Assembly: GCF_000024905.1 (NCBI RefSeq)
Contig: NC_013522.1
Coordinates: forward strand, 372,001 to 436,000
DNA length: 64,000 nt
Direction of reading: 5' to 3'
Source of the DNA: Thermanaerovibrio acidaminovorans DSM 6589
GTDB taxonomy: Bacteria; Synergistota; Synergistia; Synergistales; Synergistaceae
Below, piece after piece: positions 4,095-61,816 of the stretch (its first letter is position 1; each line of letters begins with the position of its first letter). The notes under the pieces were generated by a model that worked only from the letters and a program-made list of their open reading frames with translations, was not told the origin of the DNA and did not search any database. The translations under genes and the position numbers were made by a program.

Positions 4095-4159
4095 AACTTG
4101 AGTTTAACAGGATTGCTCATATTTGTGCCCCCATGGGGCGCGGTGGAGGGGTAGATCAG

Positions 4160-6061
4160 TTGTCGGCCAGATGCTCGAGGGCCCTTGGGGCCGCGTTGTT
4201 CATGTGCCTAATCCTCTGGTGTTCCCATGGCTGGGCGGGGGAGGTAAGGGTCAGCCTGGGTGATATGGGGTACCCGTCGGGGGTGATGATCCCCGGACCT
4301 AGGGGGGAAGTGAGCCTCCTCCTGCCCGTGCCGGGTTCGTCCCCAGGGGGGCGTATCGAGCTGTCCTACGTCTGTCCCCCGGGGGTGAGCGGCGGTGCTC
4401 TGGGCATCGCCGTGGATGGGGTGGATGGGGGCACCATCCCCATAGGTCCCGGATCCGGCCGGGCCTCGTTCCGCCTCCCCGGGGCCTCCGCCAAGGGGCG
4501 GATCCTGGTGAGGCTCCGGGCATCCCTGGCGGGTCCTGGGGCCCTCTGGGACGATCCCACCGCCGAGAACCTGGGGTTGAAGCTGGGGGCCGATTCCGAG
4601 ATGGTGCTGGATGGGCCGGTGACGCCCCCCAAGGGGATCTCCCAGTGGATCGGCTCCCTCAGCGGTTCCGTGGCGGTGGTGGTGCCCGACAAGCCCAAGG
4701 ACGAGGAGCTGTCCGCCGCGTTCGGGGTTCTGGGGATGCTGGTTCGGCGTCTTCCTCACCGCAACGTGTCCCTGATCCGGTCCTCCGAGGAGGTGTCGGC
4801 GGTGGACAGCCTCAGGATCCGGATCCAGATGGATCCCGGCAGGGCTGAGGGGGCCCTGGTTGGGGGTGGGGGCCGGTGGATCCTCATAAACGGTTCCTCC
4901 AGGGAGTCGCTGGTGATGCTCTGTTCCAGGCTCTTCGACCCCAAGTTCCAGGGGGTCCTCCAGGGGGCGGAGGCCACCAACCTGCAGGGGGGCGGAACCG
5001 GAGGGGCGCCCAGCTGGCGCTACGAGCCCATCTCCAGGAGCTGGTCCTCCTCCTGGGGGGTGGAGCGGGGGATTCTGAGCTTCGTGGGTGCCGTGCCCCG
5101 CCGGGTCAGGGTGTCCCTCCGGGGGGTTGTGCCCGCCTCGGTGAGGGATCCGGAGGTGGCGCTGGACCTATACATCAACGGTGACCTGGTTGGCTCCGTC
5201 AAGCTGGGCTCAGGGGGTTTCTCTAAGGACCTGAGCGTTCCCGAGTGGGTTAGGATATACCCCAGGAATAAGGTGGCCATGGTCTTCAGGGGGGCCGGGG
5301 GGCCTCCGAGCGTCGGGGTCGATTCGGTGGCCATAGGGGACCTGCGGGAGTCCCCCTTCGACCTGGCGGACCTGCCCGCCTACCTGGAGGGGGCCTCCCT
5401 GTTGGTGGACCGGGACCTGCGGTGGACCGGCGTCAAGGGGGCGGGGTCGATCTTCGCCTGGCTGGCGTCGTACCTGCCGGATGGGTATCCCGCCTTCCCC
5501 AGGGTGACCACCTACGAGTCCACCTTCTCCCCCCCAAAGGGGATCATGATCTCGGTGAGCAGCCGGATTCCGGAGACCATGTCGGACCGTCTCCGGGTGC
5601 TGGTCTCCGACGGGGGGGTCAAGGTCAAGGCACCCCGGGTGGAGGCGAACCTGTCGGACCGGTCCTTCAGCCTCATGGGGCAGGCCCTGGACGGTGACGG
5701 GGGTATGGCGGTGCTGGTAACCTCCGCGGTGGAGGCGCTTCCAAGGGCCGCGGTGGCCCTAATGGACACTCCGCAGCGGGACCTGGCGGGGGACGTGTTC
5801 TTCTACTCCGACGGGGGTGGGGTCAAGATCTGGGACCTGGAGGAGCCCCAGAGGCGGAGCCTCCTGGCGGGTCTCTGTGGTTGGCTCAGGAGGCTCGACC
5901 CAAAGGTGCGCCTTCCGTTTCAATGGCCCCTGGACGGAAGGCTTACCATCTGCGTACTGGGAGGGGCGGCGGTCCTTCTGGGGGTCTTGGCCCTTTGGCT
6001 GACCCGGTCATGGGATACCAGGCGGAGACGCAGAAATAGGATCAGGAAGAGGTACATTTGA
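4160..6061 (+). CDS. BcsB-like exopolysaccharide export/synthesis protein, envelope-anchored
   Basis: A 633-aa protein with the layout of the cellulose synthase regulatory subunit BcsB: signal peptide (GAALFMCLILWCSHGWAG, cut near residue 27), a long beta-rich periplasmic body, and one C-terminal membrane helix (LTICVLGGAAVLLGVLALWL) followed by a basic tail. Three BcsB-like patterns are visible: VVVPDKPKDEELSAAFGVLG, ILINGSSRESLVMLCSRLF, and DLYINGDLVGSVKL followed by RNKVAMVF. TTG 4160 follows GGAGGGG by eight to nine bases and gives a better signal peptide than ATG 4133. No BcsA synthase is adjacent. It converges on a diguanylate cyclase gene, and BcsA/BcsB systems are classically c-di-GMP activated, so a c-di-GMP-controlled polysaccharide is plausible. 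Similarity is remote; the family call is inference. Confidence 0.55.
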   Translation: MSARCSRALGAALFMCLILWCSHGWAGEVRVSLGDMGYPSGVMIPGPRGEVSLLLPVPGSSPGGRIELSYVCPPGVSGGALGIAVDGVDGGTIPIGPGSGRASFRLPGASAKGRILVRLRASLAGPGALWDDPTAENLGLKLGADSEMVLDGPVTPPKGISQWIGSLSGSVAVVVPDKPKDEELSAAFGVLGMLVRRLPHRNVSLIRSSEEVSAVDSLRIRIQMDPGRAEGALVGGGGRWILINGSSRESLVMLCSRLFDPKFQGVLQGAEATNLQGGGTGGAPSWRYEPISRSWSSSWGVERGILSFVGAVPRRVRVSLRGVVPASVRDPEVALDLYINGDLVGSVKLGSGGFSKDLSVPEWVRIYPRNKVAMVFRGAGGPPSVGVDSVAIGDLRESPFDLADLPAYLEGASLLVDRDLRWTGVKGAGSIFAWLASYLPDGYPAFPRVTTYESTFSPPKGIMISVSSRIPETMSDRLRVLVSDGGVKVKAPRVEANLSDRSFSLMGQALDGDGGMAVLVTSAVEALPRAAVALMDTPQRDLAGDVFFYSDGGGVKIWDLEEPQRRSLLAGLCGWLRRLDPKVRLPFQWPLDGRLTICVLGGAAVLLGVLALWLTRSWDTRRRRRNRIRKRYI

Positions 6062-6075
6062 GCGGGCAGTGGGTC

Positions 6076-7470
6076 CTACCTCTGGGCCTCCTTCCCCTGC
6101 TTGTGGGCGTACATCTTCCGATCCAGTTCATCTATTATCTCCTCCAGGTCCCTCGTGTCCGTAGGACTCAGCTCCTCGAAGCCAAAGCTCAACCCAACCG
6201 GGGTGCCGTATTCCTCTGTGAAGGCCATAGTGGACTGGAACCTCATTACGAAGTTATCGAATAGCTCAAAGCCGGATATTCCCTCGTAGCCGTGGACCAT
6301 TATGACGAACTCGTCTCCTCCCCATCGGCACATGAGGTCCGCTCCACGGAAGGAGTGCATCATGATCTTGCCCATCAGCTTCAGGATCCGGTCCCCCTCG
6401 AAATGGCCATGGGTGTCGTTTATCCTCTTGAGCCCGTCCAGATCCATGTAGGCCATGAAGCACGTCTCCCCGGACTTCCGGGTCTCGGATAGGACCTCCC
6501 GGGCCTGGCCGATGAAACCTCGGCGGTTTAGCAGCCCGGTTAATGGGTCGGTGATAGCCTGTAGCTTCAACTGATCCCTCAGGAGGCACAGCTCCGTAAC
6601 GTCTCTCATGGTGATCACGCGGGCCTCCTGCGATCCCCAGGAGGTGATTCCGATCTTGACGTCCAACACCATGGCATCCCCCGATGGCAGGGTAACGTGT
6701 AACTCCGTCTTCTCCTCCTCGTTTGTGGCGAAGGGGATCATTCCACCGGTCCATCCGGCGGATCGGAGGATCATCTCCCCGGCCGGGTTCACGTAGAGGA
6801 CCTCCCCAGAGGTTGATGCCACTAGGATGCCATCGTCCACCATCGCCATGGTGTTGTAAAGGTTATCCCGTAGGTTCCTGGCGTCCCTCTCCAGCTCCTC
6901 CTGGCGGGTCAGCAGATCGTTCAATTGCCTGGCGGACTGGGATGAAGAATCCACCAGGGAGAAGATGAGGTTAACTATCTGCATCTTCTGGGCGGTTATC
7001 TTGTGTACCTGGTCCCCCACGTTTATCTCCAGCACCACCTGGGCCTCGTTGCCAGACGGCCTGGTAAGGTAATAGTTTATGAGAGATAGGACCTGCTTGA
7101 TTATGTTATCCGGCGTTGAGGGCTTGACGATGAAATTGTCTGCCCCGGCCTTTAGGCCGTTGATCACCTCCACAGGGTCCGTTAGGGCGGTGAGCAGGAT
7201 CACCGGGATGTTATGAGTTCTCTGATCCTCCTTGATCCTCCTGCACAGTTCGAAACCGTCCATCCGGGGCATCATCACATCAGAGATGATGATAGACGGC
7301 ATCTCATCCGACGATAGAGCCCATCTGAGGGTGTCCTCACCGTTCTTGAACCAGTAGACTTTGAAGCCCTCCGCCTCGAGGAGGGATTTGAGTCCTCTGC
7401 CCTGAGTTTGGCTGTCCTCCGCCAGCAGTATGGTGTGATTGTTCGGGTCCAACATGTTAGCCACGCCCAT
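6076..7470 (-). CDS. WspR-like response regulator diguanylate cyclase (REC-PAS-GGDEF)
   Basis: Makes cyclic di-GMP from two GTP when its receiver domain is phosphorylated. REC spans about residues 12-135 with phospho-acceptor Asp64 (IISDVMMPRMDG) and the conserved Lys in FIVKPS. A short coiled linker (about 180-205) leads to a PAS-like sensor at about 205-300 (MVDDGILVAS...GEVLYVNPAGEMIL). GGDEF covers about 305-464 with an intact RWGGDEF at 382-388. The product-inhibition I-site RxxD is present as RGAD at 375-378, exactly five residues before GGDEF. Last gene of the chemosensory operon, two bases after cheB. Pseudomonas WspR lacks the PAS, so this copy probably has an extra sensory input. 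Confidence 0.92.
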   Translation of the reverse strand: MGVANMLDPNNHTILLAEDSQTQGRGLKSLLEAEGFKVYWFKNGEDTLRWALSSDEMPSIIISDVMMPRMDGFELCRRIKEDQRTHNIPVILLTALTDPVEVINGLKAGADNFIVKPSTPDNIIKQVLSLINYYLTRPSGNEAQVVLEINVGDQVHKITAQKMQIVNLIFSLVDSSSQSARQLNDLLTRQEELERDARNLRDNLYNTMAMVDDGILVASTSGEVLYVNPAGEMILRSAGWTGGMIPFATNEEEKTELHVTLPSGDAMVLDVKIGITSWGSQEARVITMRDVTELCLLRDQLKLQAITDPLTGLLNRRGFIGQAREVLSETRKSGETCFMAYMDLDGLKRINDTHGHFEGDRILKLMGKIMMHSFRGADLMCRWGGDEFVIMVHGYEGISGFELFDNFVMRFQSTMAFTEEYGTPVGLSFGFEELSPTDTRDLEEIIDELDRKMYAHKQGKEAQR

Positions 7471-7472
7471 GG

Positions 7473-8525
7473 TTATTCCCTAACATCTCTTTCAGTTCTA
7501 GTTACCAAACTTGCAAGACGGGATCCAAGCTCCGCCGGAGGAGCCAGCAGGGTAACTCCGCCAAGCATGTAAGCCTCACCGGGCATCCCCCAAACCACCG
7601 AAGAGGCCTGATCCTGGGCCATGGTGAAAGCTCCGGCCCCTCTGGCTTCCGCCATCTCCAGCGACCCGTCGGTCCCCATGCCGGAGAGGAGCACTGCGGC
7701 CCAACGTGGGCCGTACTCCTTGAGCATGGACCTGAACAGGACCGATACGGCGGGCCTCACCCCGTGCTCCGGGGGCTCCTCCGACAGATCCACCGACCCG
7801 TTCCTCACCTTCATGTGCAAACCGGATGGGCACAGAAAAACCTTGCCTCCACTGAGGCGTTCCCCCCGGGAAGCTATGGAAATCACATGTCCAGATCCGT
7901 CCCCCAACCACCTAGCGTAGCCCTCCTCAAAGCCCTTGAACATGTGTTGTACCAGCAGGATGGGCACCGGACAGGGAGAGGGAATGGACTTGAGAAGCTC
8001 AAGGGTGGACTTGGGCCCCCCGGTGGATGCCCCTATGGCCACCGCCTCAATGGGATGTGGCGTCCTCTCAACCATGGAAGGCGGCGGTACCTCAGGTGAA
8101 GGTTTAGGTGGGGCCGCGTGTGGGATGCGGTTGATTATCGGGAGGGCCCTCCAGAGGACCTCCTTTGCAAAGGCCTCAGGGGTGGTCCCCGGCCCAGGCT
8201 TGGCCATGATGTCATCCGCCCCCATCTCCAGAGCCCGGAACGTGAGCGCCAGCTCCGATGGGGACCATACGGAGGATATGACGATTATGGCCAGCTGCCG
8301 AAGGGCCTTTATCCGCTGGCAGGCCTGGATGCCTCCCATGCCGGGCATCTCTATGTCCATGGTCACCAAGTGGAAGTGATCCCCCGATATGCGGATTATC
8401 TCCTCCGCCTCCTCCCCGGAGAAGGCCAGGGTCACCGACGAGACCTCCCCCATGGCGGAGAGCCCCCTCTTCAGGTACCTCTGGAAAGTGGGGGAGTCGT
8501 CCACCACCAGCACGTTCAAGCCCAT
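7473..8525 (-). CDS. cheB: CheB/WspF-type chemoreceptor methylesterase
   Basis: Removes methyl groups from, or deamidates, chemoreceptor glutamates. The 350-aa protein has an N-terminal REC domain with phospho-Asp in VTMDIEMPGM (near residue 56) and a C-terminal esterase. The catalytic triad is visible: Ser in AIGASTGGPK, His in LLVQHMFKG and Asp in GMGTDGSLEM. Length equals typical CheB. ATG 8525 sits directly behind GGAGGTGACCC. It lies 13 bp after the cheA-type gene and just before the GGDEF regulator, the same relative position as wspF in Pseudomonas. Phosphorylation by the upstream hybrid kinase is expected from the family. Confidence 0.95.
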   Translation of the reverse strand: MGLNVLVVDDSPTFQRYLKRGLSAMGEVSSVTLAFSGEEAEEIIRISGDHFHLVTMDIEMPGMGGIQACQRIKALRQLAIIVISSVWSPSELALTFRALEMGADDIMAKPGPGTTPEAFAKEVLWRALPIINRIPHAAPPKPSPEVPPPSMVERTPHPIEAVAIGASTGGPKSTLELLKSIPSPCPVPILLVQHMFKGFEEGYARWLGDGSGHVISIASRGERLSGGKVFLCPSGLHMKVRNGSVDLSEEPPEHGVRPAVSVLFRSMLKEYGPRWAAVLLSGMGTDGSLEMAEARGAGAFTMAQDQASSVVWGMPGEAYMLGGVTLLAPPAELGSRLASLVTRTERDVRE

Positions 8526-8538
8526 GGGTCACCTCCAA

Positions 8539-10626
8539 TCATCCCAGCATGTCTGATACCAGGGAAGTCAGCCTCCCTTGGTCGAAGCTCCCCTTGGGTA
8601 CGTGGGCGTCCGCACCTGCTTCGATGCCCCGCTGGACGTCCTCCGGGGACTCAAGGGAGGTGACCAGGATGACCGGGATGGACCTCAACGCGGGGGAGCC
8701 CTTGATCCGCCGGGTGAGCTCGAACCCGTCCATCCGGGGCATCTCCACGTCGGTTATCACCAGGTGGTGGGGATCCCGGGATATCACCTCCCAGGCCTCC
8801 TGGCCGTCCGCCGCGGTGGTGACCTGGTAGCCCAGGGAGGTCATCAGGTTCCTCAGGAGGGCCCTGGATGTGACCGAGTCCTCCACCACCAGGATCCTCT
8901 TGGGCCCCTGGTCCGCCTGGGCCCCTTGGCCGGCCGATGAGCCGTGGGGGGAGGAGTCCGCCAGGTCCGACGGGTTGAGCACCGGCACCACACTGCCGTT
9001 GCCCAGCAGGACGCCACCTTGAAAGAACCTGACCTTGCCCAGGAACTCACCCAGGGGCTTCAGGATCCCCTCGTGGACCCCCAGGACCTGGTCCACCTGG
9101 ATGGCCACCGAGGACCCGGAGGAGGAGATCACCACCGCCACGGGCCTTGATCCCTTGGAGGAGGTGCCGTCCTTGAGGGACAGCAGATCCCCCAGGGGGA
9201 CCAGGGGGAGGTGGCGATCCTTTACCCTGATCATTCCTGGGTGAGGGGAGCGCTCGATCCTGATGGAGCACTCCACGGATGATGAGGGGAGGGAGAAGAG
9301 GTGCCCCCCCGCGGCCACCAGGACCCCCTGGTAGGTCCGCATGGTGACCGGGAACTCCAATGTGAAGCAGGTACCGTGCCCAACTTGGCTCTCAACCCGG
9401 ATGGATCCCCCCAGGCGCTCCACCGTCTCCTTCACTATGGACATGCCTATGCCCCGGCCGGAGACGTCGGTGACCCTGTCCGCGGTGGAGAACCCGGAGC
9501 GGAAGATCAGCTCCGTGGCCTCCTGGTCCGACATGGCCTCCGCCTCCTCGGGGGTTATCAGCCGGTCCTTAAGGGCCCTCTGCTTGAGCCTCCTGGGATC
9601 AATGCCCCGGCCGTCGTCCCGGACGGTCAGGATCCCCACGCTGCCGCTGGCGGAGATCTCTATCTCCAGGTTCCCCACCCTTGGCTTGCCGGAGGCCTCC
9701 CTATCCTGGGGGGGCTCGATGCCGTGGTCCACCGAGTTCCGGACCAGATGCACCAAGGGCTCCTTGAGAGACTCCATCACGTTCCTGTCCAGCCTCACGT
9801 CCCCTCCGCTGACGGAGACCCATAACTCCTTCTGGGTCTTGATCGCCAGGGATGACGCGGCCTCCTTGAGGTACCGAAGAAGCCCGGAAGCGCTGAGCAT
9901 GCTAAGTTGCCTCACCTTGTCCAGCAGGTTCTTGACCGACCGGTCTATGGATCCCACGTCCTCCAGGAGGCCCTTGGTGAGTTCCCGAAGGTGCCTCAAG
10001 TTCCCCGCTTGCCCCTTGGCCGCCTGGTTCAGGTCCTCCGCCTTCCTGGCCGCGTAGAGCACCAGGGGGATCAGGTCCTCCAGGAGCATGGACAACTCCT
10101 CCACCTGGGAGAACCGGACCCTCACCGTGTCGGATCCCTGGGGCGCCGGAGGGCTTGGTTGGCGATCCGGCTGGTCCGCCGGGGCCACCGGCTCCCCGGG
10201 GGGCGGTGTCTCCCCCTGGGGAGCCCTTGGGGCGGAGGGGGAGGGCACGTCCACTTGCCTTCCCTCCGCCAGGTCCTTAAGGGCCTTCAGCAGGTCTCCC
10301 ACATTGAGCTCCTCCCCCTGGATGAGCCGAGACAGGGAGTCCAGGGCGGATCCCAGGGTGAGGATGTGGGGGGTCTCCAAGGACAGGCCCCCCCTCTTGG
10401 CGGCGGACACCACCGACTCCATGGCCTGGCACAGGGTGCTGACCTTAAGGTAGCCCACCGCCTGGGAGGCCCCCTTCATGTTGTGAAGGGCCCGGTAGGC
10501 CTCCTCAAGCCTCTTGGGATCCCGGACCGCCGCCGGGTCCCCAAGGACGTCCCGGACCATTGACACGTACTCCCCCGCCTCCAGGATGAAGTCCTGCCAG
10601 AGCTCCTCCATGAAGTCCTGGGTCAT
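8539..10626 (-). CDS. WspE-like hybrid CheA histidine kinase with C-terminal receiver
   Basis: Signal-transducing kinase of a chemosensory array, 695 aa. Order of domains: HPt (residues about 1-110) with phospho-acceptor His48 in ALHNMKG; a proline-rich linker (about 120-160); dimerisation helices; HATPase with HLVRNSVDHGIE (N box), DDGRGID and GRGIGMSIVKETVERLGG; a CheW-like domain; and a REC domain whose acceptor is Asp626 (VITDVEMPRMDGFEL). The fused receiver separates it from flagellar CheA and matches WspE. ATG 10626 is preceded by GAGGTGGCACC. It is nine bp downstream of the MCP gene. Expected targets are the GGDEF regulator and CheB encoded immediately after it. Confidence 0.94.
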   Translation of the reverse strand: MTQDFMEELWQDFILEAGEYVSMVRDVLGDPAAVRDPKRLEEAYRALHNMKGASQAVGYLKVSTLCQAMESVVSAAKRGGLSLETPHILTLGSALDSLSRLIQGEELNVGDLLKALKDLAEGRQVDVPSPSAPRAPQGETPPPGEPVAPADQPDRQPSPPAPQGSDTVRVRFSQVEELSMLLEDLIPLVLYAARKAEDLNQAAKGQAGNLRHLRELTKGLLEDVGSIDRSVKNLLDKVRQLSMLSASGLLRYLKEAASSLAIKTQKELWVSVSGGDVRLDRNVMESLKEPLVHLVRNSVDHGIEPPQDREASGKPRVGNLEIEISASGSVGILTVRDDGRGIDPRRLKQRALKDRLITPEEAEAMSDQEATELIFRSGFSTADRVTDVSGRGIGMSIVKETVERLGGSIRVESQVGHGTCFTLEFPVTMRTYQGVLVAAGGHLFSLPSSSVECSIRIERSPHPGMIRVKDRHLPLVPLGDLLSLKDGTSSKGSRPVAVVISSSGSSVAIQVDQVLGVHEGILKPLGEFLGKVRFFQGGVLLGNGSVVPVLNPSDLADSSPHGSSAGQGAQADQGPKRILVVEDSVTSRALLRNLMTSLGYQVTTAADGQEAWEVISRDPHHLVITDVEMPRMDGFELTRRIKGSPALRSIPVILVTSLESPEDVQRGIEAGADAHVPKGSFDQGRLTSLVSDMLG

Positions 10627-10635
10627 GGTGCCACC

Positions 10636-12315
10636 TCAGATCCTGTAGACTTCCAGCACCTTGGTCAGGTTGTAGCTGGCCGCCTTGAGGTCCAGGGTGG
10701 CGGACTCCAGCTCCTTGATGGCCTCCGTGTTGTCCCTGCTGGTGGAGCGGATCTGCTCCATGGCCTGGTTCACCTGATCCACCCCCAGGAAGAGGTCCTG
10801 GTTGGCCCTGAGGGTCTGGGTGGACATCTGGGCTATCTCCCCCAGGTGCCGGGCCATCTGGTCCATGGCGGACCTGACCGGCTCCGTGTGCCTGGAGGCC
10901 TCGTTGGTGGCCTTCACCCCCTGCTCGGTGGCCATCACCGCCGCGGATGTGGCCCGTTGCACCTCCCCCAGCTTGCGCTTAACCTCCTTGGCCTGGGCCT
11001 TGGACTGCTCCGCCATGGACTTTATCTCCGAGGCCACCACTGCGAAGCCCCTGCCCGCCTCCTGAGCCTTGGCGGCCTCCACCGCGGCGTTCACCGCCAG
11101 CAGGTTCGATTGCTCCGCCAGGTCCTCCACCGTGTCCGCCACGTCCATGATCTCCCGGGTCTTATCGTTCAGGGTGACTATGGTGTCCGAGAGGAAGCCC
11201 ATCCTCTCCCGGATGCGCTCGATGGCGTCCAGCAGGGCCGTGGCGGCCTCGTGGGTGGCGATCACCAGCTCCAGACCCCGCTTGGTCAGCTCGCTGGCGT
11301 CCTCCATCTTCTTGGCGGTGGTCTTGGCGGTGGCCTTTATCTCCTCCATGGACGTGGAGCTCTCCGCCAGGGACGCGTAGTTCTCCTCCGCACTGGCCGC
11401 CAGCTGGGACGCCACCGCCGAGGCGGTCACCGAGAGGGACTCTATGCCCTTCGCCACCGCCCGGGTCTCCAGCACCTGCCCCCTTATCCGGTCCGCAGTG
11501 GACCTTATGCTCCTGGCCATGACGCCCATCTCGTCATCCCCCTGGAGCAGCCCCGGATCCAGCTGGACGTCCAACTCCCCCGCCTCAAGCCGGGCCATGG
11601 CCTCCGACGCCAGGCCTACGATCCGGGAGATGGAGGAGGTCACCCAGTAGCCGGTCAGCAGGGTCAGCAGGATTATCAGGCCTATCACCAGGAGGGACCT
11701 GTGGGCGAACTCGTTGTACATCCGGTCCACCGACTCCAGGGCGGAGGTCTCCTCCTGTCCGAACCGGTCCGCGGTCCTCTCCGACAGGACCCCGAAGGCG
11801 TCCGAGACCGCCACCATCCTGGAGATGTGCTGATCCAGCCTGGCCAGCTCCTCCCTGCCCCTCCGGGTGGCCAGCGCCCGGGCCGCCTCCAGGAACGCCC
11901 GGTCCAGCTGGGCGTGCCCCTCCCTCCAGACGGAGTAGGACTCCTCTAGCTGGGTCCCCACCTGGGCCAGGTCACCTCCCTTGGCCCCCGCCATCCGGGA
12001 GAGCTGGGCCACCTGGCGCCCCACCTGGTCTATGGCGGAGGACTTGTCGGACACCAGCCGCCGGGCCTCATCCTCCCCCATCCTGGAGGTGGAGAGGGTC
12101 GCCATGCTGTTGAGGAAATTGACCCTCACCTGGAGCCGCCTGTAGTTGATCTCGTCCGCCAGGACCGACATGCTTGCCAGGTCCTGGGCGTGCCTTATGG
12201 AGTAGGATATCCGCTCCTTCAGGAGGAAGACGAAGGCCCCAAGGCCCCCCAGCATCAGCAAAAGGGCCAGGACGAAGACGGTCAAGCGGGATCTTATGCT
12301 AGGTCTGAACGACAC
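10636..12315 (-). CDS. Methyl-accepting chemotaxis protein (WspA-like receptor)
   Basis: Membrane chemoreceptor of 559 aa. TM1 (LTVFVLALLLMLGGLGAFVFLL) near residues 12-33 is followed by a periplasmic helical-bundle domain of about 160 residues and TM2 (LLVIGLIILLTLLTGYWV) near 197-215. A HAMP domain and a long cytoplasmic signalling hairpin come next; its tip reads DLAEQSNLLAVNAAVEAAKAQ then GRGFAVVASEIKSMAEQS, the hallmark kinase-control region. Start GTG 12315 lies behind AGGGGGTTGCGCC. It sits between a cheW and the hybrid cheA, so it is the dedicated receptor of this pathway. The sensed signal is unknown; Pseudomonas WspA responds to surface contact and envelope stress. Confidence 0.94.
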   Translation of the reverse strand: MSFRPSIRSRLTVFVLALLLMLGGLGAFVFLLKERISYSIRHAQDLASMSVLADEINYRRLQVRVNFLNSMATLSTSRMGEDEARRLVSDKSSAIDQVGRQVAQLSRMAGAKGGDLAQVGTQLEESYSVWREGHAQLDRAFLEAARALATRRGREELARLDQHISRMVAVSDAFGVLSERTADRFGQEETSALESVDRMYNEFAHRSLLVIGLIILLTLLTGYWVTSSISRIVGLASEAMARLEAGELDVQLDPGLLQGDDEMGVMARSIRSTADRIRGQVLETRAVAKGIESLSVTASAVASQLAASAEENYASLAESSTSMEEIKATAKTTAKKMEDASELTKRGLELVIATHEAATALLDAIERIRERMGFLSDTIVTLNDKTREIMDVADTVEDLAEQSNLLAVNAAVEAAKAQEAGRGFAVVASEIKSMAEQSKAQAKEVKRKLGEVQRATSAAVMATEQGVKATNEASRHTEPVRSAMDQMARHLGEIAQMSTQTLRANQDLFLGVDQVNQAMEQIRSTSRDNTEAIKELESATLDLKAASYNLTKVLEVYRI

Positions 12316-12372
12316 GGCGCAACCCCCTATTCTTCACGATTATGTTGAGCTGATGATAACACCGGTTTCCGG

Positions 12373-12834
12373 TCACAAGGCCAGGGCCTCCATCCGGACT
12401 ATCATCACGTCTCCCGCCATCCCCTCCAGGGGGTGGTCCGGGGGGGTCTCCGTCACGTCCTCCCGGGGGACCCTCATGGTGCCCTCCAGGGAGTCGAAGC
12501 CGATCCCGAACTGGCCGTGCCGGTTTAAGGTTACCATGGCTACCCTTAGGGGGCCCGGGGCCTCGATCTTGAGGGGGTAGGACAGGTCCAGGAGGGGCAC
12601 TATGGACCCCCTCAGGTTGAAGACCCCCGCCACGTGGGGGGGAAGGGTGGGAATGGGGGTGTAACCCTTGAGGCGCACCACCTCGCCCCAGGAGTCGGGC
12701 CGGAAGGCCAGCAGGGACGACCCCCTCCTGAACACCATGAGCTCCTCCCAGTCCGACCTCTCATGTGACTCCGCCGCCAGCCTTCGGGCCCTCTCCAGCA
12801 GCCTGGCGTTGACTCCGGATCCTTGGGATACCAA
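12373..12834 (-). CDS. CheW-like adaptor (first of two in the Wsp-like operon by position)
   Basis: CheW-fold scaffold that couples receptor to kinase, 153 aa. The conserved CheW core is visible: VAGVFNLRGSIVPLLDLSYPL (strands around the RG motif) and the later GIGFDSLEG. An N-terminal extension of about 25 charged residues precedes the domain. TTG 12834 follows GGGGAGGTGATGTCCA with ideal spacing. It lies 57 bp upstream of the MCP gene and 40 bp downstream of cheR. Two CheW proteins flanking a CheR is exactly the wspB-wspC-wspD arrangement. Confidence 0.88.
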   Translation of the reverse strand: MVSQGSGVNARLLERARRLAAESHERSDWEELMVFRRGSSLLAFRPDSWGEVVRLKGYTPIPTLPPHVAGVFNLRGSIVPLLDLSYPLKIEAPGPLRVAMVTLNRHGQFGIGFDSLEGTMRVPREDVTETPPDHPLEGMAGDVMIVRMEALAL

Positions 12835-12874
12835 TGGACATCACCTCCCCCACTGGATTTTAAACCCTTGGGCA

Positions 12875-14185
12875 TCAGGTGATAACCCCCTGGGCGGCCC
12901 GCCTCATGTCCCTCACCCTGACCGACTCCCCCAGGAGGGTATGGCCATCGTCATCCATCCCCTGGATGGAGCTCAGCAGTAGCCTGGCGTGCCTATTGGC
13001 CAGCGATAGGTCCCCCCGGGAGGCGGCGAGCATCATGATGCAGTAGTGGGCCTCGGGGAAGAGGGGGTCGATGAAGACCGCCCTCGAGAGGGCCCTCATG
13101 GCCTCCTGGTCCAGCCCCATGTCCATCAGCACCACCCCCTCCAGGAATGGGAACCTGGGGTCCTTGACGTGGGTCTCCTGGGCGGCCCGGCAGGCGGCGA
13201 GGGCCCCCTCCAGGTCCCCCCCGTCGGCCATCCTGGTTATCTCCTCCACCGTCCGGTGTGGGGATGGGGTCCCCTGAGCCCCTTGGGGGCCTTCCACCGG
13301 CGGCTTTCCCTTGGGGGCCGAGGCCCGTGGGCTGGGGGCGGGTGGCCTGGCCGGGGTGGGACCTGTCCTGTCCTTGGGGTTGTGCCCCCCGGGGGCTTGG
13401 GGGTGCCAATGCAAGACTGCCTGAAAGGTGGAGTGTCCCGCCGGGGCGAATAGGTCCCTGCCCAGGGAGGCCACCGATGGGGCCTCCGCGTAGCCCACGG
13501 TAAGGAGGCCTCCCTCCAGGAGGATTCTGTGGAACACCTCCAGGGCCCTCCTTATGGCCTCCTCGGTGAAGTATATGAACAGGTTCCTGCAGGAGACGCC
13601 GTGGAACGCACCCTCCGGGGGCTGAAAGACGTTGCCCACGTGAAAGGTGACGTTCCGCCGGTAGCGTTCCTTGAGCTGGAAGAGCCCGTCAGGGGTCTCG
13701 TCGAAGTAGGTCCTCACGGGGGACGTGCCGTCCATTCCCCGGAGGGACCAGCGGGAGTAGACCCCCCTCATGGCCTTGGCTATGGCGGAGGGGCTTATGT
13801 CGGTGCCGATTATGTGGAAGTCCTCCTTGCCCATGTTCATCAGCAGGATCGCCATGGAGTAGGGTTCCTCCCCGGAGCTGCAGGCGGGGCACCAGATCTT
13901 GAGGTTCCGCCGGTTCGAGAGGGCCACCAGGAAGTCCTCCGTGGAGGCCCTCTGCCTCATGAAGAACGTCTCCCCCACCCGCATGAGCTCCCCGCCGATG
14001 GCCACCAGCCTGTCCATCCCAAGCCGCTCCAGCTGGCCTGGGAGGATCCCCTTCTCCCGGCACCAGTCCTCCAGGGCCTTGGTCAGATCCCCCTCCCGTC
14101 CCTCCATCTGGATCCCGAACGCGAGGGATATGGACCGGGAGAGGCGCCGGGCCAGTTGCTCCAGTCCGTCGGATCCTTGGTTCAT
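12875..14185 (-). CDS. CheR methyltransferase with C-terminal TPR-like domain (WspC-like)
   Basis: Methylates chemoreceptor glutamates using S-adenosylmethionine. The 436-aa protein has the CheR all-alpha N-domain, then the SAM-binding motif WCPACSSGEEPYSMA, IIGTDISPSAIAKAM and CRNLFIYF, then a Pro-rich linker and a C-terminal helical repeat region (LEGVVLMDMGLDQEAMRALSRAVFIDPLFPEAHY) that reads as TPR. Fusion to TPR is the WspC architecture, not flagellar CheR. ATG 14185 overlaps the stop of the upstream cheW as ATGA, implying translational coupling. The frame is open upstream to 14809, but that part is out-of-frame antisense-like sequence over cheW and sir2 and is not coding. Confidence 0.93.
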   Translation of the reverse strand: MNQGSDGLEQLARRLSRSISLAFGIQMEGREGDLTKALEDWCREKGILPGQLERLGMDRLVAIGGELMRVGETFFMRQRASTEDFLVALSNRRNLKIWCPACSSGEEPYSMAILLMNMGKEDFHIIGTDISPSAIAKAMRGVYSRWSLRGMDGTSPVRTYFDETPDGLFQLKERYRRNVTFHVGNVFQPPEGAFHGVSCRNLFIYFTEEAIRRALEVFHRILLEGGLLTVGYAEAPSVASLGRDLFAPAGHSTFQAVLHWHPQAPGGHNPKDRTGPTPARPPAPSPRASAPKGKPPVEGPQGAQGTPSPHRTVEEITRMADGGDLEGALAACRAAQETHVKDPRFPFLEGVVLMDMGLDQEAMRALSRAVFIDPLFPEAHYCIMMLAASRGDLSLANRHARLLLSSIQGMDDDGHTLLGESVRVRDMRRAAQGVIT

Positions 14186-14565
14186 CCCAGGAGGTCCCCC
14201 GGGTTCAGCACCGTGGCCATCTGGTCCCTCTCGTGGCCGTACTGGATCACCAGGCCCCCTGGGGACTGGGCCTGGGACAGGGGCTCGAATATCCCCTCCA
14301 CCTGGTCCACCCACAGGCCAACCGTTCCCCGGTCCGTGGTGACCAGCACTATGGCGTCCGAGGTCTTCATCTCCTTTGCGTCCTGTTCCATGGGGCCTCG
14401 GGGGTCCGCCACGGGGATCACCTGGGAGCCCACCTTCAGGGTCCCCGCCACGGTGCCGCACCGCCCCTCGGGGCTCAGCGCCGCCGCCGGCAGGGCCCGG
14501 ATGACCATGTCCAACGGCACCGCCAGCCTCCTGGCCCCCACCGCCAGGACCATGTACCTGGTCAA
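14182..14565 (-). CDS. CheW-like adaptor (second, upstream of cheR)
   Basis: A 127-aa CheW-fold protein. It shows the usual beta pattern: an N-terminal strand (MVLAVGARRLAVPLDMVIRALP), VGSQVIPVADPRGP, then GLWVDQVEGIFEPL and a C-terminal LNPGDLLG. The classical NLRG motif is degenerate, so it is a divergent family member. TTG 14565 with GGGGGTGG four bases upstream is the likely start; ATG 14553 is an alternative. Its stop overlaps the cheR start (ATGA), and it lies 18 bp after the sirtuin gene, so the sirtuin is probably on the same transcript. Confidence 0.8.
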   Translation of the reverse strand: MTRYMVLAVGARRLAVPLDMVIRALPAAALSPEGRCGTVAGTLKVGSQVIPVADPRGPMEQDAKEMKTSDAIVLVTTDRGTVGLWVDQVEGIFEPLSQAQSPGGLVIQYGHERDQMATVLNPGDLLG

Positions 14566-14583: not shown

Positions 14584-15324
14584 CTAGGGTTTCAGCCCCA
14601 TCTCCGCCGCCAGTCTCATGAAGAAGGGGTCTATGTCCTCCTCTATCATTATATCTATCGGCCTTCTCACGTGTCCGGTGTATATTTCCCCCCGGCTCAC
14701 CACCGCCAGGGTGCCCTTGCACAGGCTTGGGAGCGACGCCGCGGGGGTCACGGTGAGGGAGGAGCCCACCACCAGCATGACCTGGCAGTCCCTGGAGAGC
14801 TCCATGCACCGATCAAGGTCCCTTACCCCCTCGCCGAAGAAGACCACGTGGGGCTTTATGAGCCCTCCGCAGGAGCAGAGGGGCACCTCCCGCTCCTCCA
14901 TCATGGCCTTAAGGTCCCCCAACGAGTAGGTGCGTCCGCAGGTGAGGCACGAGTTCTCCCCGATGCCGCCGTGGATCTCGATCACGTTCCTGGAGCCCGC
15001 CCGCTGGTGTAGCCCGTCCACGTTCTGGGTTATCACCGCGAGGTCCTTCGTCTCCTCCAGCTTGGCGATGAACCGGTGGGCGAAGGAGGGCCGTACGGCC
15101 TCCACCATCTCCAGGAACCTGCGGTGGAACCCGTAGAAGGTGGAGGGGTTCACCATGAAGTGGTCTATGTCGAAGATCCTCTCCGCCTCCGCCCCCAGCT
15201 GACGGTATATGCCGTTGGGCCCCCGGAAGTCCGGTATGCCCGACGCGGTGGATATCCCGGCCCCGGTGAGCACCACGATCCTACGGGCCCCCTCCAGGGC
15301 GGATGCCAAGGCCTTCAACCCCAT
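14584..15324 (-). CDS. cobB: NAD-dependent protein deacylase, sirtuin (Sir2/CobB)
   Basis: Removes acyl groups from lysines, consuming NAD+. The 246-aa protein has every sirtuin motif: TGAGISTASGIPDFRG, ITQNVDGLHQRAGS, catalytic His in IEIHGG, the zinc tetrad (CLTCG near 125 and CSCGG near 147), then LKPHVVFFGE-like IKPHVVFFGEGV, and VVGSSLTVTPA. ATG 15324 has AGGGATCG upstream and gives a standard N-terminus; the 20-residue extension to 15384 is unlikely. First gene of the Wsp-like operon by position (18-bp gap). In E. coli CobB deacetylates CheY, so a role in tuning this chemosensory system is possible but unproven. Confidence 0.94.
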   Translation of the reverse strand: MGLKALASALEGARRIVVLTGAGISTASGIPDFRGPNGIYRQLGAEAERIFDIDHFMVNPSTFYGFHRRFLEMVEAVRPSFAHRFIAKLEETKDLAVITQNVDGLHQRAGSRNVIEIHGGIGENSCLTCGRTYSLGDLKAMMEEREVPLCSCGGLIKPHVVFFGEGVRDLDRCMELSRDCQVMLVVGSSLTVTPAASLPSLCKGTLAVVSRGEIYTGHVRRPIDIMIEEDIDPFFMRLAAEMGLKP

Positions 15325-15425
15325 TTCGATCCCTCGCTTTCCTGTTTTATAAGTTGATTGTAATATACATCTTGACGGCCTCATGGGCCAGGGAGAAGTT
15401 TGAGAGATGGAGGGGGGATGTGGTG

Positions 15426-19888: not shown

Positions 19889-21097
19889 TCAGGGCAGGCC
19901 CAGCATCCGTCTGGAGAGGGCCTTCACCCGCTCCGCCTCCCGCCACTGGGGGTTGAGGACCGGTGGGGCGCTCGCGTTGAGGGTAAGGTCCACCACCCGC
20001 TTGCCGCCGAAGGCGCTCCAGTAATCCCGGTATATGATCTCGTCCTGGGGGAAGGGGACCAGATCGGTCCCCTCTCCAAGGACGTTTTGCCCCGCCCCCT
20101 CGAAGGGGATCCCCAATAGGTGGGCCACCGTGGGGGCCAGGTCAAGCTGCCCTACCGGCCGGTCCACCTGGAGCCTGAGGTACCCCTCCCTGGAGGGGAT
20201 CAGCAGGATCATGGGGACCCGGCCGAAGTCCCTCTGCCGGTGCGGCTCCCGGGTGAGTCTCTCCATGGAGTTCATCTCCAGGAACCGGTTCAGCTCCTCC
20301 GTATCCCCGATCCCCGGTGCCCGGTGGTCCCCGTAGAGGGCGATGATGGTCCGCCTTCCCAGGGGGGATCGGGTCACCCAGTCCACCAGGAGCCCCACCG
20401 CGTGATCCGTGTAATTGGCGCTCTGGAGGTAGTCCCCCAGGGTGGTGCCCTGGAACTTCCCGGAGTCGAAGTCCCACACCTTGTCCACCTTGTAGGGGTG
20501 GTGGCTGGAGAGGGTCATCACCAAGGCGAAGAAGGGCTCCCTTAGGAGACCCCGGGAGAGGGTGTGGATCAACTGCCTTGAGAGGCTCAGGTCCGATATG
20601 CCCAGCCCCACCAGCTGGTCGTTCACCAGGGCCCCCTGGTGGTAGTAGCGGTCGATGCCTATTAGGGGATAGACCTTCTTCCGGTTCCAAACCGATGGGG
20701 AGTTGCCGTGGAAGGCGTAGGTGTGGTAGCCCGCCTCCTTGAGGGCCCTCGGAAGGGATCGCATCGGCTTGGATATGTCCTTGAAGGCCGCCCCGTCCGG
20801 AAGGGGCAGGATGGAGCACATGGCCAGCAGCTCCGCGTCGGAGGTGTTCCCCATGCCGGTCTGGGCGTAGCACCGGGAGAAGGAGACCCCGGAGGAGTGG
20901 AGCCTGTTCAGGTTCGGCGTAACCTCCCGGCCGTCCACCCGGGAGCCTATGAGGAACTGCTGGATGGACTCCATCTGGATGTAGATCAGGTTGTAGCCCC
21001 TAAAGGCCCCGAAGGGCACCTCCTCCCCCCAGGCCTGGCCTCCGAGCAGGATTACGGCCAGCATGATCGTGAGCGCGAGCTTGTACGGTTTGAACAA
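19889..21097 (-). CDS. Secreted LtaS-like phosphoglycerol transferase/sulfatase-fold protein lacking a membrane domain
   Basis: Alkaline-phosphatase-superfamily enzyme of the lipoteichoic-acid-synthase type, 402 aa. A signal peptide (ALTIMLAVILLGGQAWG) precedes the catalytic domain: NLIYIQMESIQQFLIGS (metal-binding Glu), TPNLNRL, the nucleophile Thr in TGMGNTSDAEL, LSSHHPY and ALYGDHRAPG. Unlike LtaS it has no five-helix membrane domain, so it should act as a soluble or loosely bound periplasmic enzyme. TTG 21097 follows GAGGGGTGA by eight bases. A full-length paralogue is encoded at 23361-25247. Phosphoglycerol transfer to a glycan or lipid is inferred; a phosphodiesterase role is possible. 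Confidence 0.85.
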   Translation of the reverse strand: MFKPYKLALTIMLAVILLGGQAWGEEVPFGAFRGYNLIYIQMESIQQFLIGSRVDGREVTPNLNRLHSSGVSFSRCYAQTGMGNTSDAELLAMCSILPLPDGAAFKDISKPMRSLPRALKEAGYHTYAFHGNSPSVWNRKKVYPLIGIDRYYHQGALVNDQLVGLGISDLSLSRQLIHTLSRGLLREPFFALVMTLSSHHPYKVDKVWDFDSGKFQGTTLGDYLQSANYTDHAVGLLVDWVTRSPLGRRTIIALYGDHRAPGIGDTEELNRFLEMNSMERLTREPHRQRDFGRVPMILLIPSREGYLRLQVDRPVGQLDLAPTVAHLLGIPFEGAGQNVLGEGTDLVPFPQDEIIYRDYWSAFGGKRVVDLTLNASAPPVLNPQWREAERVKALSRRMLGLP

Positions 21098-21199
21098 GAT
21101 CGTTATCACCCCTCGCCACGATTATACCCCTCTCTTGAAACTCCAGGGGGAAGTTGGTGTAGGATATAAAGGTTAAAATCCGAGAAAGGAGTGATCGTT

Positions 21200-23360: not shown

Positions 23361-25247
23361 ATGAAGTTCAGGGGTAATCCGGGTGGGATCCGGGGGTTGG
23401 CGGGGCACCTCATATGGCCCCTGGCGGTCTGGACCGTCAGCTCCTTCAAGTTCCTGGCCCTCTGCGACTCCATGAGGGGGGGATCCCAGTGGTGGCCCCA
23501 GGTTCTCTGGTCCACCATCCTGGGTGCCCTGGCCCTTTCGGGGCTGCCCCTTCTGCTCCCCAGGAGGGTGAGGCCCCTGGGGTTCGTGGCGGTGAGCGCC
23601 CTGGTGTCCGCCCTCTGTCTGGCGGACCTGCTCTACTATAGGTACTACACGGACCTCTTCACCGTTCGCAGCCTCTCCCTGGCGGGACAGCTGGGGGACG
23701 TGTGGGACTCGGTCCGGTCCCTCTTCTCCATGGGGGACCTGCTGTTCCTCATGGACCTGCCGGTCCTCCTGGCGGTGGCCCTCTTGGACTTGAGATCCAG
23801 GGAGAGGGACCTCAGGTTCCGCTTCCGGGCCGCGGGGACCTGCCTGTGCCTGTTGGGCCTTTTGCCCTTCGGCTTCCAGACCGGGATCGTCAGGCTCAGG
23901 GTGCCCGGCTACGTGAGGGCCATGTGGGACCGGCCGGCGGTGATGTTCACGCTGGGGCCCGTGGGGTACCACCTGGCGGACCTCATTAACGCCTCGTCGG
24001 ACCTCTTCGCCTCCCGGGCGGTGGCCGCCCAGGACGAGGAGGCCCTCCTGGATTGGGCGGTCAAGCGCCGCCAGCAGGTGCCGGTCTCCCAGCGGGACTC
24101 CCTCCACGGGGCCGGCAAGGGGCTCAACCTGATAGTGGTCCAGGTGGAGGCCCTCCAGGGGTTCGTCATGAACCTGAAGGTGGGGGGCCAGGAGGTGACC
24201 CCCAACCTTAACCGCCTGGCCCGGCGGAGCCTCTACTTCCCCAACGTCTACAACCAGACCGGTGCGGGCAACACCTGCGACGCGGAGTTCATGGTCCAGA
24301 CCTCCCTCTTCCCCTCCGCCACCGGGGTGGCCTACGTGAGGTTCTCGGGCAACTACTTCGAGTCCCTCCCCCGGATCCTCCAGAGGAACGGCTACGAGAC
24401 CCTATCCATGCACGGCAACAGGGCCTCCTTCTGGAACAGGCACCGGATGCACCCCGCCCTGGGTTTCCAGGAGTTCTTCAGCAAGGAGAGGCTGAGGAGC
24501 GATGAGGAGATAGGCCTGGGCCTGTCGGACCGGAGCTTCTTCGAGCAGGGAGCCCGGATCCTATCGGAGCGGAAGGGGCCCTTCTACGCCTTCATGGTGA
24601 CCTTGAGCAGCCACCACCCCTTCTCGTTCCAGGGGATACCCAGGACGCTCAAGCTGGACGGGTCCCTGGAGGGGACCTTTCTGGGGGATTACCTCAACGC
24701 CATTCACTATGCGGATGCTCAGATAGGCAGGTTTCTGCAGGATCTCAGGAGGAGGGGGATCCTGGACAGGTCGGTGCTGGTGGTCTACGGGGACCACACC
24801 GCCATACCCAACGCCAACGGGTCGGAGCTGGAGGTCCTCCTGGAGCAGGATCTAAAGGACCCGTTGAGGTGGAGGGCCCTGCAGAAGGTGCCGCTGATGA
24901 TACGGCTCCCCAAGGGCAGGGGTGCCAGGGTGGTGGAGACCACCGGGGGGCACGTGGACATAGGCCCCACCGTGGCGTCCATCATGGGGGTGAACATGCC
25001 CCTGGCGTTCGGCCAGGACCTTCTAACCGCCCGGGTGGGCACCGTGGTCTTCCGAAACGGGACCTTCATAAGGGGCGGGGTCTTCGTGGACCCCACCGCC
25101 CGGATGGCCTGGAGCATGGGGACCTTGTCGGAGGTGCCCTTCGACGCCTACCGGGACCTGGCGGAGGGGGCGTCGGAGGCGCTGCGCCTGTCGGACCTGC
25201 TACTGGAGAAGGACATGGCCCAGAGGGTTTGCGAGAGGCTGCCTTGA
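23361..25247 (+). CDS. LtaS-family phosphoglycerol transferase, membrane-bound
   Basis: Polytopic enzyme of 628 aa. Five N-terminal membrane helices lie within about residues 15-180 (for example FVAVSALVSALCLADLLYY and LLFLMDLPVLLAVALLDL). The extracytoplasmic sulfatase-fold domain has NLIVVQVEALQGFV (metal Glu), TPNLNRLA, nucleophile Thr in QTGAGNTCDAEFMVQTSLFP, MHGNRASFWNRHRMHP, LSSHHPFSF and VVYGDHTAIPN. This is the complete LtaS/OpgB-type layout. ATG 23361 has GGGAGGATATGAGAC upstream. The downstream gene is a processive glycosyltransferase, so the enzyme may decorate a periplasmic or surface glycan with phosphoglycerol. Lipoteichoic acid itself is not expected in a two-membrane bacterium. 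Confidence 0.9.
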   Translation: MKFRGNPGGIRGLAGHLIWPLAVWTVSSFKFLALCDSMRGGSQWWPQVLWSTILGALALSGLPLLLPRRVRPLGFVAVSALVSALCLADLLYYRYYTDLFTVRSLSLAGQLGDVWDSVRSLFSMGDLLFLMDLPVLLAVALLDLRSRERDLRFRFRAAGTCLCLLGLLPFGFQTGIVRLRVPGYVRAMWDRPAVMFTLGPVGYHLADLINASSDLFASRAVAAQDEEALLDWAVKRRQQVPVSQRDSLHGAGKGLNLIVVQVEALQGFVMNLKVGGQEVTPNLNRLARRSLYFPNVYNQTGAGNTCDAEFMVQTSLFPSATGVAYVRFSGNYFESLPRILQRNGYETLSMHGNRASFWNRHRMHPALGFQEFFSKERLRSDEEIGLGLSDRSFFEQGARILSERKGPFYAFMVTLSSHHPFSFQGIPRTLKLDGSLEGTFLGDYLNAIHYADAQIGRFLQDLRRRGILDRSVLVVYGDHTAIPNANGSELEVLLEQDLKDPLRWRALQKVPLMIRLPKGRGARVVETTGGHVDIGPTVASIMGVNMPLAFGQDLLTARVGTVVFRNGTFIRGGVFVDPTARMAWSMGTLSEVPFDAYRDLAEGASEALRLSDLLLEKDMAQRVCERLP

Positions 25248-25355: not shown

Positions 25356-26672
25356 ATGAGTGGTGAGGAGATGTTCTACTTTTCCGTATGGTGGGGCTGG
25401 TGGCTGGTTCAGTGCTGTCTGTACCTGCTCTTCGGGTTGCTGATCGCCGACGGCATATATCAGTTCGTGGTGAGCTTCCGGGGCTGGTGGACCCCCAAGG
25501 CGCCCCCCAAGGCCTCCAGGTACCGGCGCTTCGCGGTGCTGATCCCCGCCCACAACGAGGCCCGGGTCATAGGACCCCTTCTGGAGAGCCTCAAGGAGCA
25601 GGACTATCCCAAGGATTGCTACCGGGTCTTCGTGTCCTGCGACAACTGCACCGACCACACCGCCCAGGTGGCGGCCCTGCACGGGGCGGTTCCCCTCATA
25701 AGGACCGACACCACCAAGAGCGGCAAGACCTGGAACGTCCGCTGGGCCCTGACCCAGATACCCATGGACGAGGTGGACGCGCTGGTCATGTTCGACGCGG
25801 ACAACCTGGCATCCCGGGACTTCCTCTCCCGGATGAACGACTACATGGAGGCCCACCCGGAGGCGGAGGCGGTCCAGGGGGTTCTTGATGTCAAGAACCC
25901 GGACGACAACTGGCTCACCAAGGCCTACGCCCTGGCCTACTGGTACACCAACCGGTTCTGGCAGCTGGCCAGGTCCAACTGGGGCCTGTCCTGTACCCTG
26001 GGGGGCACCGGGCTGGTCATAAGGTCCTCCACCCTCCGCCGCATCGGCTGGAACCTGGAGAGCCTCACCGAGGACCTGGAGATGTCCACCCGGCTCATCC
26101 TTTCCGGCAGCCGGGTCCACTGGAACGAGCACGCGGTGGTGTACGACGAGAAGCCCCTGGACTACCGCATATCGGTCCGGCAGCGGACCCGGTGGATGCA
26201 GGGCCACTACTGGGTCTGCTGGCGGTACGGAATGGAGGCCCTCAAGATGTTCTTCCGGACCCGGCGGCTTCAGTACCTGGACCTGTTCCTGTACCTGTTG
26301 GCCCCCGCCAAGGCCTGCATATCCCTGTTGGCCATGTTCGCCGGCATGGCCTACACGGTGATAAACAACGCCATCCTCTTCCCCACCCTGGAGAGCAAGG
26401 CCCCCACCACCCCGCTGGAGTGGATGGCCTTCGTGGGGCTCCCGGTGGCCATGATATTGGCCCACTGCCTCTTCGTGGCCCTGGTGGGACCCTCCATGCA
26501 CCGCCGCCGCCTCTGCCTGGGCTACGTGAAGGACGTGTTCGGCTACTTCCTCTTCGGCCTATCATGGATCCCCATCCTCTTCAAGGCCGCCTTCCTGGCC
26601 AAGGACCAGGGAGTCTGGGTGAAGACCGAACACACCAGGAGCATCTCCATAGGCCAGGTTACCAACCGCTGA
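25356..26672 (+). CDS. Processive family 2 glycosyltransferase (membrane)
   Basis: Inverting GT2 polysaccharide synthase or lipid glycosyltransferase, 438 aa. One N-terminal helix (WWLVQCCLYLLFGLLIADGI) precedes the GT-A domain with VLIPAHNEARVIGPLLESL, the UDP-binding Asp in SCDNCTD, FDADN (DxD), SLTEDLEMS (TED catalytic base) and RQRTRWMQGH (QxxRW). Several C-terminal helices follow, giving a BcsA/HAS-like synthase topology without a PilZ domain. ATG 25356, RBS GGGGGATAG. The 108-bp gap to the LtaS-like gene has no terminator, so they are likely co-expressed. The sugar donor cannot be told from sequence. Confidence 0.92.
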   Translation: MSGEEMFYFSVWWGWWLVQCCLYLLFGLLIADGIYQFVVSFRGWWTPKAPPKASRYRRFAVLIPAHNEARVIGPLLESLKEQDYPKDCYRVFVSCDNCTDHTAQVAALHGAVPLIRTDTTKSGKTWNVRWALTQIPMDEVDALVMFDADNLASRDFLSRMNDYMEAHPEAEAVQGVLDVKNPDDNWLTKAYALAYWYTNRFWQLARSNWGLSCTLGGTGLVIRSSTLRRIGWNLESLTEDLEMSTRLILSGSRVHWNEHAVVYDEKPLDYRISVRQRTRWMQGHYWVCWRYGMEALKMFFRTRRLQYLDLFLYLLAPAKACISLLAMFAGMAYTVINNAILFPTLESKAPTTPLEWMAFVGLPVAMILAHCLFVALVGPSMHRRRLCLGYVKDVFGYFLFGLSWIPILFKAAFLAKDQGVWVKTEHTRSISIGQVTNR

Positions 26673-58757: not shown

Positions 58758-59032
58758 TGCAATCCCCCATTCCTTACGGCCAGTTGTGAAGCGCATATCA
58801 ATATGGATAAGGTTGCTCCCATGACCGCTCCATCTTGTCACCCGTTGCCATATGATACACCCTGGGGAGGAAGTATTGTAGTGGGGCAGAGAAGGCGTTC
58901 GAATTATAGGATAGTTGGGAGCGTCCGATCGGAATGGGCTGGATCCTTCCGTCCGGTGTTGGTTAGCGATTACATAATATAGGATTTTGGAGCTAGGGGC
59001 CTATGTGTTGGGCTCACAGGGGGGATGAGGGG
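58758..59032. other. Divergent intergenic region between pucR and the carbamoyl operon
   Basis: About 275 bp, AT-rich near 58970-58985 (TTACATAATATAGG), holding a possible -10 (TAATAT) but no clear -35. Probable location of PucR operator sites; no distinct palindrome recognised. Confidence 0.4.
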
Positions 59033-59920: not shown

Positions 59921-59925
59921 GCAGT

Positions 59926-61796: not shown

Positions 61797-61816
61797 TGCG
61801 GTTGGAGGTGATGGGG

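Follow-up and report, generated by a model that had tools for sequence, protein, structure and literature searches.

A 64,000-nucleotide stretch of the Thermanaerovibrio acidaminovorans DSM 6589 genome (positions 372001-436000 of its single 1,848,474-base contig; hereafter the window) carries seven open reading frames (ORFs) on the minus strand, running from 14565 to 6076 in window coordinates, that together form a putative chemosensory operon with a cyclic di-GMP (c-di-GMP) output. An earlier reading made from the letters alone (the sequence-only reading) had taken them for a complete wsp set. Its description of seven co-directional genes with short gaps or an ATGA overlap was confirmed by the ORF coordinates and by a Pfam domain in each product; in transcription order the intergenic distances are -4, 40, 57, 9, 13 and 2 bases. 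The first gene, with a TTG start, encodes a CheW adaptor of 127 amino acids (CheW1, in the WspB position; 14182..14565; PF01584, 1.6e-10), and overlaps by four bases, at an ATGA, the gene for a 436-amino-acid CheR methyltransferase with a C-terminal TPR region (WspC-like; 12875..14185; PF01739, 3e-35). A second adaptor of 153 amino acids (CheW2, in the WspD position; 12373..12834; PF01584, 1.5e-14) is followed by a methyl-accepting chemotaxis protein (MCP; 10636..12315; PF00015, 1e-28) with two transmembrane segments, a periplasmic domain, HAMP and a signalling domain. The remaining genes encode a hybrid CheA (8539..10626), a CheB with a receiver (REC) and a methylesterase domain (7473..8525; PF00072, 1e-17; PF01339, 1e-48), and a response regulator predicted to be a diguanylate cyclase (6076..7470; Response_reg, 7e-26; GGDEF, 6e-29). 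The regulator is built as REC (Asp64), a linker (~138-204), a PAS-like region (~200-300) and GGDEF with an RxxD inhibitory site (I-site). Pfam and neighbourhood annotation found no stand-alone CheY, CheC, CheD or CheZ gene in the operon, and an NCBIfam search returned no equivalog above cut-off.

The residues singled out by the sequence-only reading (CheA His48 and Asp626, regulator Asp64, GGDEF and RxxD) are all present. The hybrid nature of CheA likewise held up: Pfam recovered Hpt (His48), dimerisation, HATPase, CheW and REC (Asp626) domains, and no P2 domain is present. Among 18 CheAs His48 is invariant and Asp626 nearly so. In the regulator, Asp64, GGDEF, the I-site (R375..D378) and D360 are invariant in 16 orthologues, and the receiver residues likewise show no variation across the set. 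With metal and substrate residues and the I-site in place, the predicted active site appears intact, not degenerate, which was one of the two objections that the sequence-only reading had foreseen. A Hypr-type cyclase, which makes cyclic GMP-AMP (cGAMP), is disfavoured because D360, which we equate with PleD D344, is Asp in every orthologue.

No PAS domain was matched by Pfam in the window regulator. The extra PAS of the sequence-only reading is borne out through orthologues, PAS being detected in all 15 of the other sequences in the 16-row regulator alignment, and in T. acidaminovorans it has apparently diverged below detection. A single-sequence AlphaFold model of the regulator (mean predicted local distance difference test score, pLDDT, 41) was not used. 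CheR-TPR fared similarly: the TPR region is sub-threshold in the window protein (TPR_11, best E 0.013), TPR_2 lies above cut-off in the CheR of the closest relative (locus L038, T. velox-type), and the two regions are homologous by alignment. The HAMP domain of the receptor falls just under the Pfam cut-off (7e-5). 4HB_MCP_1 matches 9 of the 12 members of the receptor alignment, the window receptor not being among them, and by orthologue reasoning its periplasmic region is predicted to be of the four-helix-bundle type. The signalling domain, with 123+147 residues flanking its tip, equals that of WspA, a 40H receptor (PMC2577667), in length; the tip itself has the DLAEQSNLLAVNAA type of sequence, as in loci L189, L190, L226 and L185, versus the VADQTNLLSLNAAIEAEKAGEY type in WspA.

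To survey the phylum, we searched 188 Synergistota genomes for CheA and then annotated the neighbourhoods. At least 20 of them, spread over 8 genus and 5 family groups, carry the operon lineage, so that the expectation of the sequence-only reading that such a system would be unusual for Synergistota was wrong. The complete seven-gene operon, in unchanged order, recurs in 15 Synergistota operons besides that of the window (L061 included), each with an orthologue of CheW1 as its first gene, and most of the remaining copies are interrupted by contig ends. This recurrence of gene order and content is far beyond chance.

Is the operon then a Wsp system? In all five reference Wsp loci (L178-L182; two Pseudomonas, a Caballeronia, a Paraburkholderia and a Cupriavidus) the order is MCP-CheW-CheR-CheW-CheA-CheB-REC-GGDEF, that is, A-B-C-D-E-F-R. 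The window operon reads B-C-D-A-E-F-R, and wspA-wspF synteny is absent from it and from the 15 further Synergistota operons. The published identity threshold for Wsp asks for at least 30% per component to Pf0-1 or HI2424 queries; measured here against P. fluorescens PS833 instead, identity was 31% for CheA/WspE, 32% for CheB/WspF and 29% for CheR/WspC, and, over part of the protein only, 27% for MCP/WspA (signalling part), 37% for CheW2 (to WspB) and 25% for the regulator. CheW1 had no match among the PS833 proteins, WspB included. Kessler et al. defined Wsp by wspA-F synteny and reported it from beta- and gammaproteobacteria alone (PMC8552884). We noted a Wsp-order operon outside that range, on the megaplasmid NZ_CP117882.1 of the alphaproteobacterium Novosphingobium (L065), and wsp clusters have been reported from Zetaproteobacteria (PMC5513912); together these suggest that the beta/gamma range is too narrow.

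In a tree of 41 CheA sequences, the window CheA groups with those of Synergistota (support 100/96), and this group next joins the same-order operons L185, L189, L190 and L068 (100/99). Wsp forms a clade of its own (100/100), which also takes in L136, and the operon CheA stands apart from the sampled flagellar CheAs. Forcing the window, Synergistota and Wsp CheAs together costs 419 log-likelihood units (approximately unbiased, AU, test, p 1.25e-5). The CheB tree has the same arrangement.

The six-gene order with a linker-type regulator right after CheB is also found in Desulfobacterota (L225, L226, L227, L228, L185 and L189) and in Pseudomonas indica (L190); L229 and L233 are partial or variant clusters. 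Outside Synergistota and Desulfobacterota this distribution is a sample, not a census. A hidden Markov model (HMM) of the linker, a 67-residue post-receiver segment built from Synergistota regulators, was run on the 6587 ORFs of all loci. Outside Synergistota it picked out a clean group of regulators, scoring 17.5-59 bits apart from one at 14.8 (noise <8), with E down to 1e-16, which share a motif of the type ITADRxQILxLLLSTYExAV; several of the matches are one protein seen in two overlapping loci. None of the six WspRs was matched. The presence of the linker in many loci reflects selection, because these loci were fetched with a linker-containing model. The position of the regulators after CheB was not selected for, and L185, L189 and L190 were retrieved by their CheA only; most linker-bearing regulators sit directly 3' of CheB in a CheA:REC operon. 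The domain that follows the linker varies: a histidine kinase in L185, L189, L226, L228 and L229, GGDEF-EAL-REC in L190, GGDEF in L233, nothing in L227, and PAS-GGDEF in Synergistota. L233 (1-10132, Desulfobacterota), of the same lineage, retains this gene order with one additional MCP, and its last gene encodes REC-linker-GGDEF without PAS, a second version of the cyclase output. By annotation, the lineage has a fixed order across several phyla, CheW-CheR(TPR)-CheW-MCP-CheA:REC-CheB-regulator, with a REC-linker module joined to differing outputs.

Thermanaerovibrio acidaminovorans is an anaerobe and belongs to Synergistota, as the sequence-only reading had correctly assumed. Strain Su883T swims by means of lateral flagella that form a tuft (PMC3035242). 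A flagellar cluster at 1.36 Mb holds flhA, flhF, flhG, a PilZ protein gene, cheB and cheA. Two further genes there we take to be cheC and cheD. The other objection foreseen by the sequence-only reading, flagella that use the same operon, did not materialise, the flagellar Che genes being separate from it. The genome as a whole encodes two CheRs, about 19 receptors, 14 GGDEF matches, one EAL protein and one PilZ match, and the only full-length REC-linker-PAS-GGDEF protein among them is the operon cyclase. Since a separate flagellar Che cluster and other signalling genes lie elsewhere, the operon is best viewed as a second, dedicated chemosensory pathway; its CheR would likewise be dedicated to it, because the other CheR gene is located away from the operon. 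The sole PilZ match (G000:C1:1365232-1365558; L147, L058) has a modest score (2e-5) and carries RRRYLR..DLSLGG, and its gene is flanked by flhG and cheB in the flagellar cluster. FlhA was found in 19 of the 20 genomes with the operon versus 111 of the 168 that lack it (Fisher p 0.009, uncorrected for kinship), and the single operon genome lacking a FlhA match is a fragmented assembly. The flagellum-independent output proposed by the sequence-only reading is thus unsupported: the species swims, its flagellar Che cluster is separate, and its only PilZ lies inside that cluster. Apart from both che clusters, a CheW gene adjoins a gene for a GGDEF protein (G000:C1:1604660-1605620; L059).

Collectively, these results argue that the operon is real and conserved and that it probably turns an outside signal into c-di-GMP. 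The operon carries a multidomain response regulator (REC-linker-PAS-GGDEF) and a CheR-TPR, the latter through L038 and sub-threshold in the window. Both are features of the alternative cellular functions (ACF) class of chemosensory systems, and CheR-TPR is described as typical of it (PMC3447774). We consider it very likely that the seven genes encode one dedicated ACF pathway with a c-di-GMP output, Wsp-like in its working but belonging to a separate, multi-phylum lineage. The operon would then be an ordinary, as yet uncharacterised ACF operon, analogous to Wsp and assigned to its class from the regulator and CheR-TPR. By analogy with chemosensory arrays and WspR/PleD-type cyclases, an array of the MCP and the two CheWs would sense a periplasmic or envelope cue and control the hybrid CheA, the state of the receptor setting autophosphorylation on His48. 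Phosphate could pass to CheB, which together with CheR would provide adaptation; to the REC of CheA itself, which would serve as a sink or brake; and to regulator Asp64, which would activate the cyclase. Receiver dimerisation, acting through the linker helix, would bring two GGDEF domains into alignment, c-di-GMP would rise, and the RxxD site would give product inhibition. The nature of the stimulus is a guess, as is flagellar motility, via the single PilZ, as the main target; nothing in our analysis favours surface contact in particular.

Several observations weigh against this account. In addition to the operon cyclase, about 13 other GGDEF proteins are encoded in the genome. In two Synergistota loci (L051 and L052) the operon is intact as far as CheB and the DNA carries on unbroken, yet no cyclase comes next, and no full-length homologue of the cyclase was found elsewhere in their genomes, so the core is separable from this cyclase. 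The AU test on CheB was borderline (p 0.054), and the tree of REC domains alone, which are too short, was unresolved (AU p 0.11). The least probable of the alternatives, in our view, is that a true Wsp, orthologous to wspABCDEFR, reached Synergistota, senses surface contact and drives matrix production. The same seven components, with a hybrid CheA, CheR-TPR and a REC-GGDEF output, and a receptor signalling domain identical to that of WspA in length would fit such a transfer; the gene order is unlike that of every reference Wsp locus, a CheA clade with Wsp is rejected, the receptor tip is of the other type, WspR has neither linker nor PAS, and Wsp as defined by synteny has been reported from beta- and gammaproteobacteria alone. 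Gene order and the CheA tree together reject membership, so that of the complete wsp set claimed by the sequence-only reading, the component types and the chemosensory-to-c-di-GMP logic stand and membership falls, on order, low identity and the CheA AU test. Direct steering of the motor through a CheY-like output, by a first or second flagellar chemotaxis system, also seems very improbable: the species swims and the operon co-occurs with FlhA, but a separate CheA-CheB cluster accompanies flhA, flhF and flhG, and the operon ends in a cyclase and has none of the stand-alone CheY, CheC, CheD or CheZ genes.

Two further possibilities concern the input to the cyclase and the target of its product. 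Control mainly by the PAS-like domain of the cyclase, with the chemosensory genes setting only a background, appears unlikely. PAS is widespread in the regulator alignment, and PMC3447774 proposes that PAS and GAF domains added to regulators of this kind serve as second inputs; yet the receiver residues are invariant in all the regulators, REC-linker is the part common to the rest of the lineage, and the PAS of T. acidaminovorans itself has diverged below detection. A target in the flagellum is a different matter. The species is motile and has FlhA, and the one PilZ that it encodes lies in a Che cluster separate from the operon, which makes an effect on the flagellum plausible and a leading possibility. 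The specific proposal that c-di-GMP from this system is directed chiefly at the flagellum by way of the lone YcgR-like PilZ protein, the cue thereby slowing or halting swimming, is tentative, a real possibility short of an even chance: the motif-bearing PilZ in the flagellar/che cluster and the co-occurrence with flagella speak for it, against which the PilZ score is modest, a direct gene link between operon and PilZ is absent, and the search for c-di-GMP receptors covered the PilZ type only. It is a refinement of the ACF pathway, not a rival to its core mechanism. More doubtful still is a broader proposal in which the six-gene core with REC-linker is a plug-in module, one receptor-kinase-adaptation set retained in several phyla, whose outputs are swapped behind the conserved linker, and in which Synergistota arrived, apart from Wsp, at a two-input PAS-GGDEF cyclase coupled to the flagellum by a lone PilZ brake. 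The cyclase would then receive one input from the receptor array through REC and a second cue through PAS.

Around the operon, a Sir2-family protein deacylase gene (14584..15384, minus strand; PF02146, 6e-50) lies 18 bases upstream of CheW1 in the same direction. It adjoins the operon only in Thermanaerovibrio genomes (tblastn, L038 and L039 only); there it is possibly co-transcribed with the operon, and a link to control of the pathway by protein acetylation is possible. Convergent to the operon and 14 bases from it, 4133-6061 (plus strand) encodes a 642-amino-acid protein with a signal peptide and a C-terminal membrane helix. Relatives ~40% identical occupy the same position in other Thermanaerovibrio genomes, and Pfam and PDB sequence searches found no match; the idea of a BcsB-type periplasmic protein came from by-eye resemblance only, with a poor single-sequence model (pLDDT 36), and was dropped. 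A family-2 membrane glycosyltransferase that carries the motif RQRTRW (25356-26672, plus strand), a candidate polysaccharide synthase, lies 11 kb from the operon, near genes that we read as sulfatase/LTA-synthase-like (19889-21109 and 23361-25247). At 57195-63355, genes for a PucR-like regulator, a nitrilase-type hydrolase, a CoA transferase, and DUF2877-like and FdrA-like proteins resemble by eye an oxamate/allantoin-type cluster that continues past the window edge.

The wiring from chemosensory array to c-di-GMP known from Wsp thus appears also in a separate operon lineage, and Wsp is therefore not the sole solution of its kind; an uncharacterised example is now placed in a fully sequenced thermophile. 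To label such operons Wsp would credit them, without evidence, with sensing surfaces. How one kinase array can drive different enzymes may be approached through the conserved linker that joins the receiver to its swappable output.

Among known systems, Wsp of Pseudomonas and Burkholderiales shares with the window operon its component types, CheR-TPR, hybrid CheA:REC, REC-GGDEF with I-site and the length of the receptor signalling domain, and differs in gene order, CheA/CheB phylogeny, receptor tip, a regulator without linker and PAS, and an identity of only ~27-32%. The CheR-TPR ACF clusters of PMC3447774 also contain CheR-TPR alongside multidomain regulators, some of which fuse REC to GGDEF and PAS; Synergistota are absent from its main text, and this lineage is not treated there. 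Frz and R. centenum Che3, both CheA-CheY fusion systems, also have a hybrid CheA, with non-flagellar outputs according to the literature; by description, their gene order and outputs differ. The same-order ACF operons of Desulfobacterota, Pseudomonas indica and a Rhodocyclaceae bacterium, themselves uncharacterised, resemble the window operon in gene order, CheA/CheB clade (the Rhodocyclaceae operon being placed more distantly), receptor tip and, in most, the REC-linker module, and differ in an output that is usually a histidine kinase, GGDEF-EAL or none, or, in L233, REC-linker-GGDEF without PAS.

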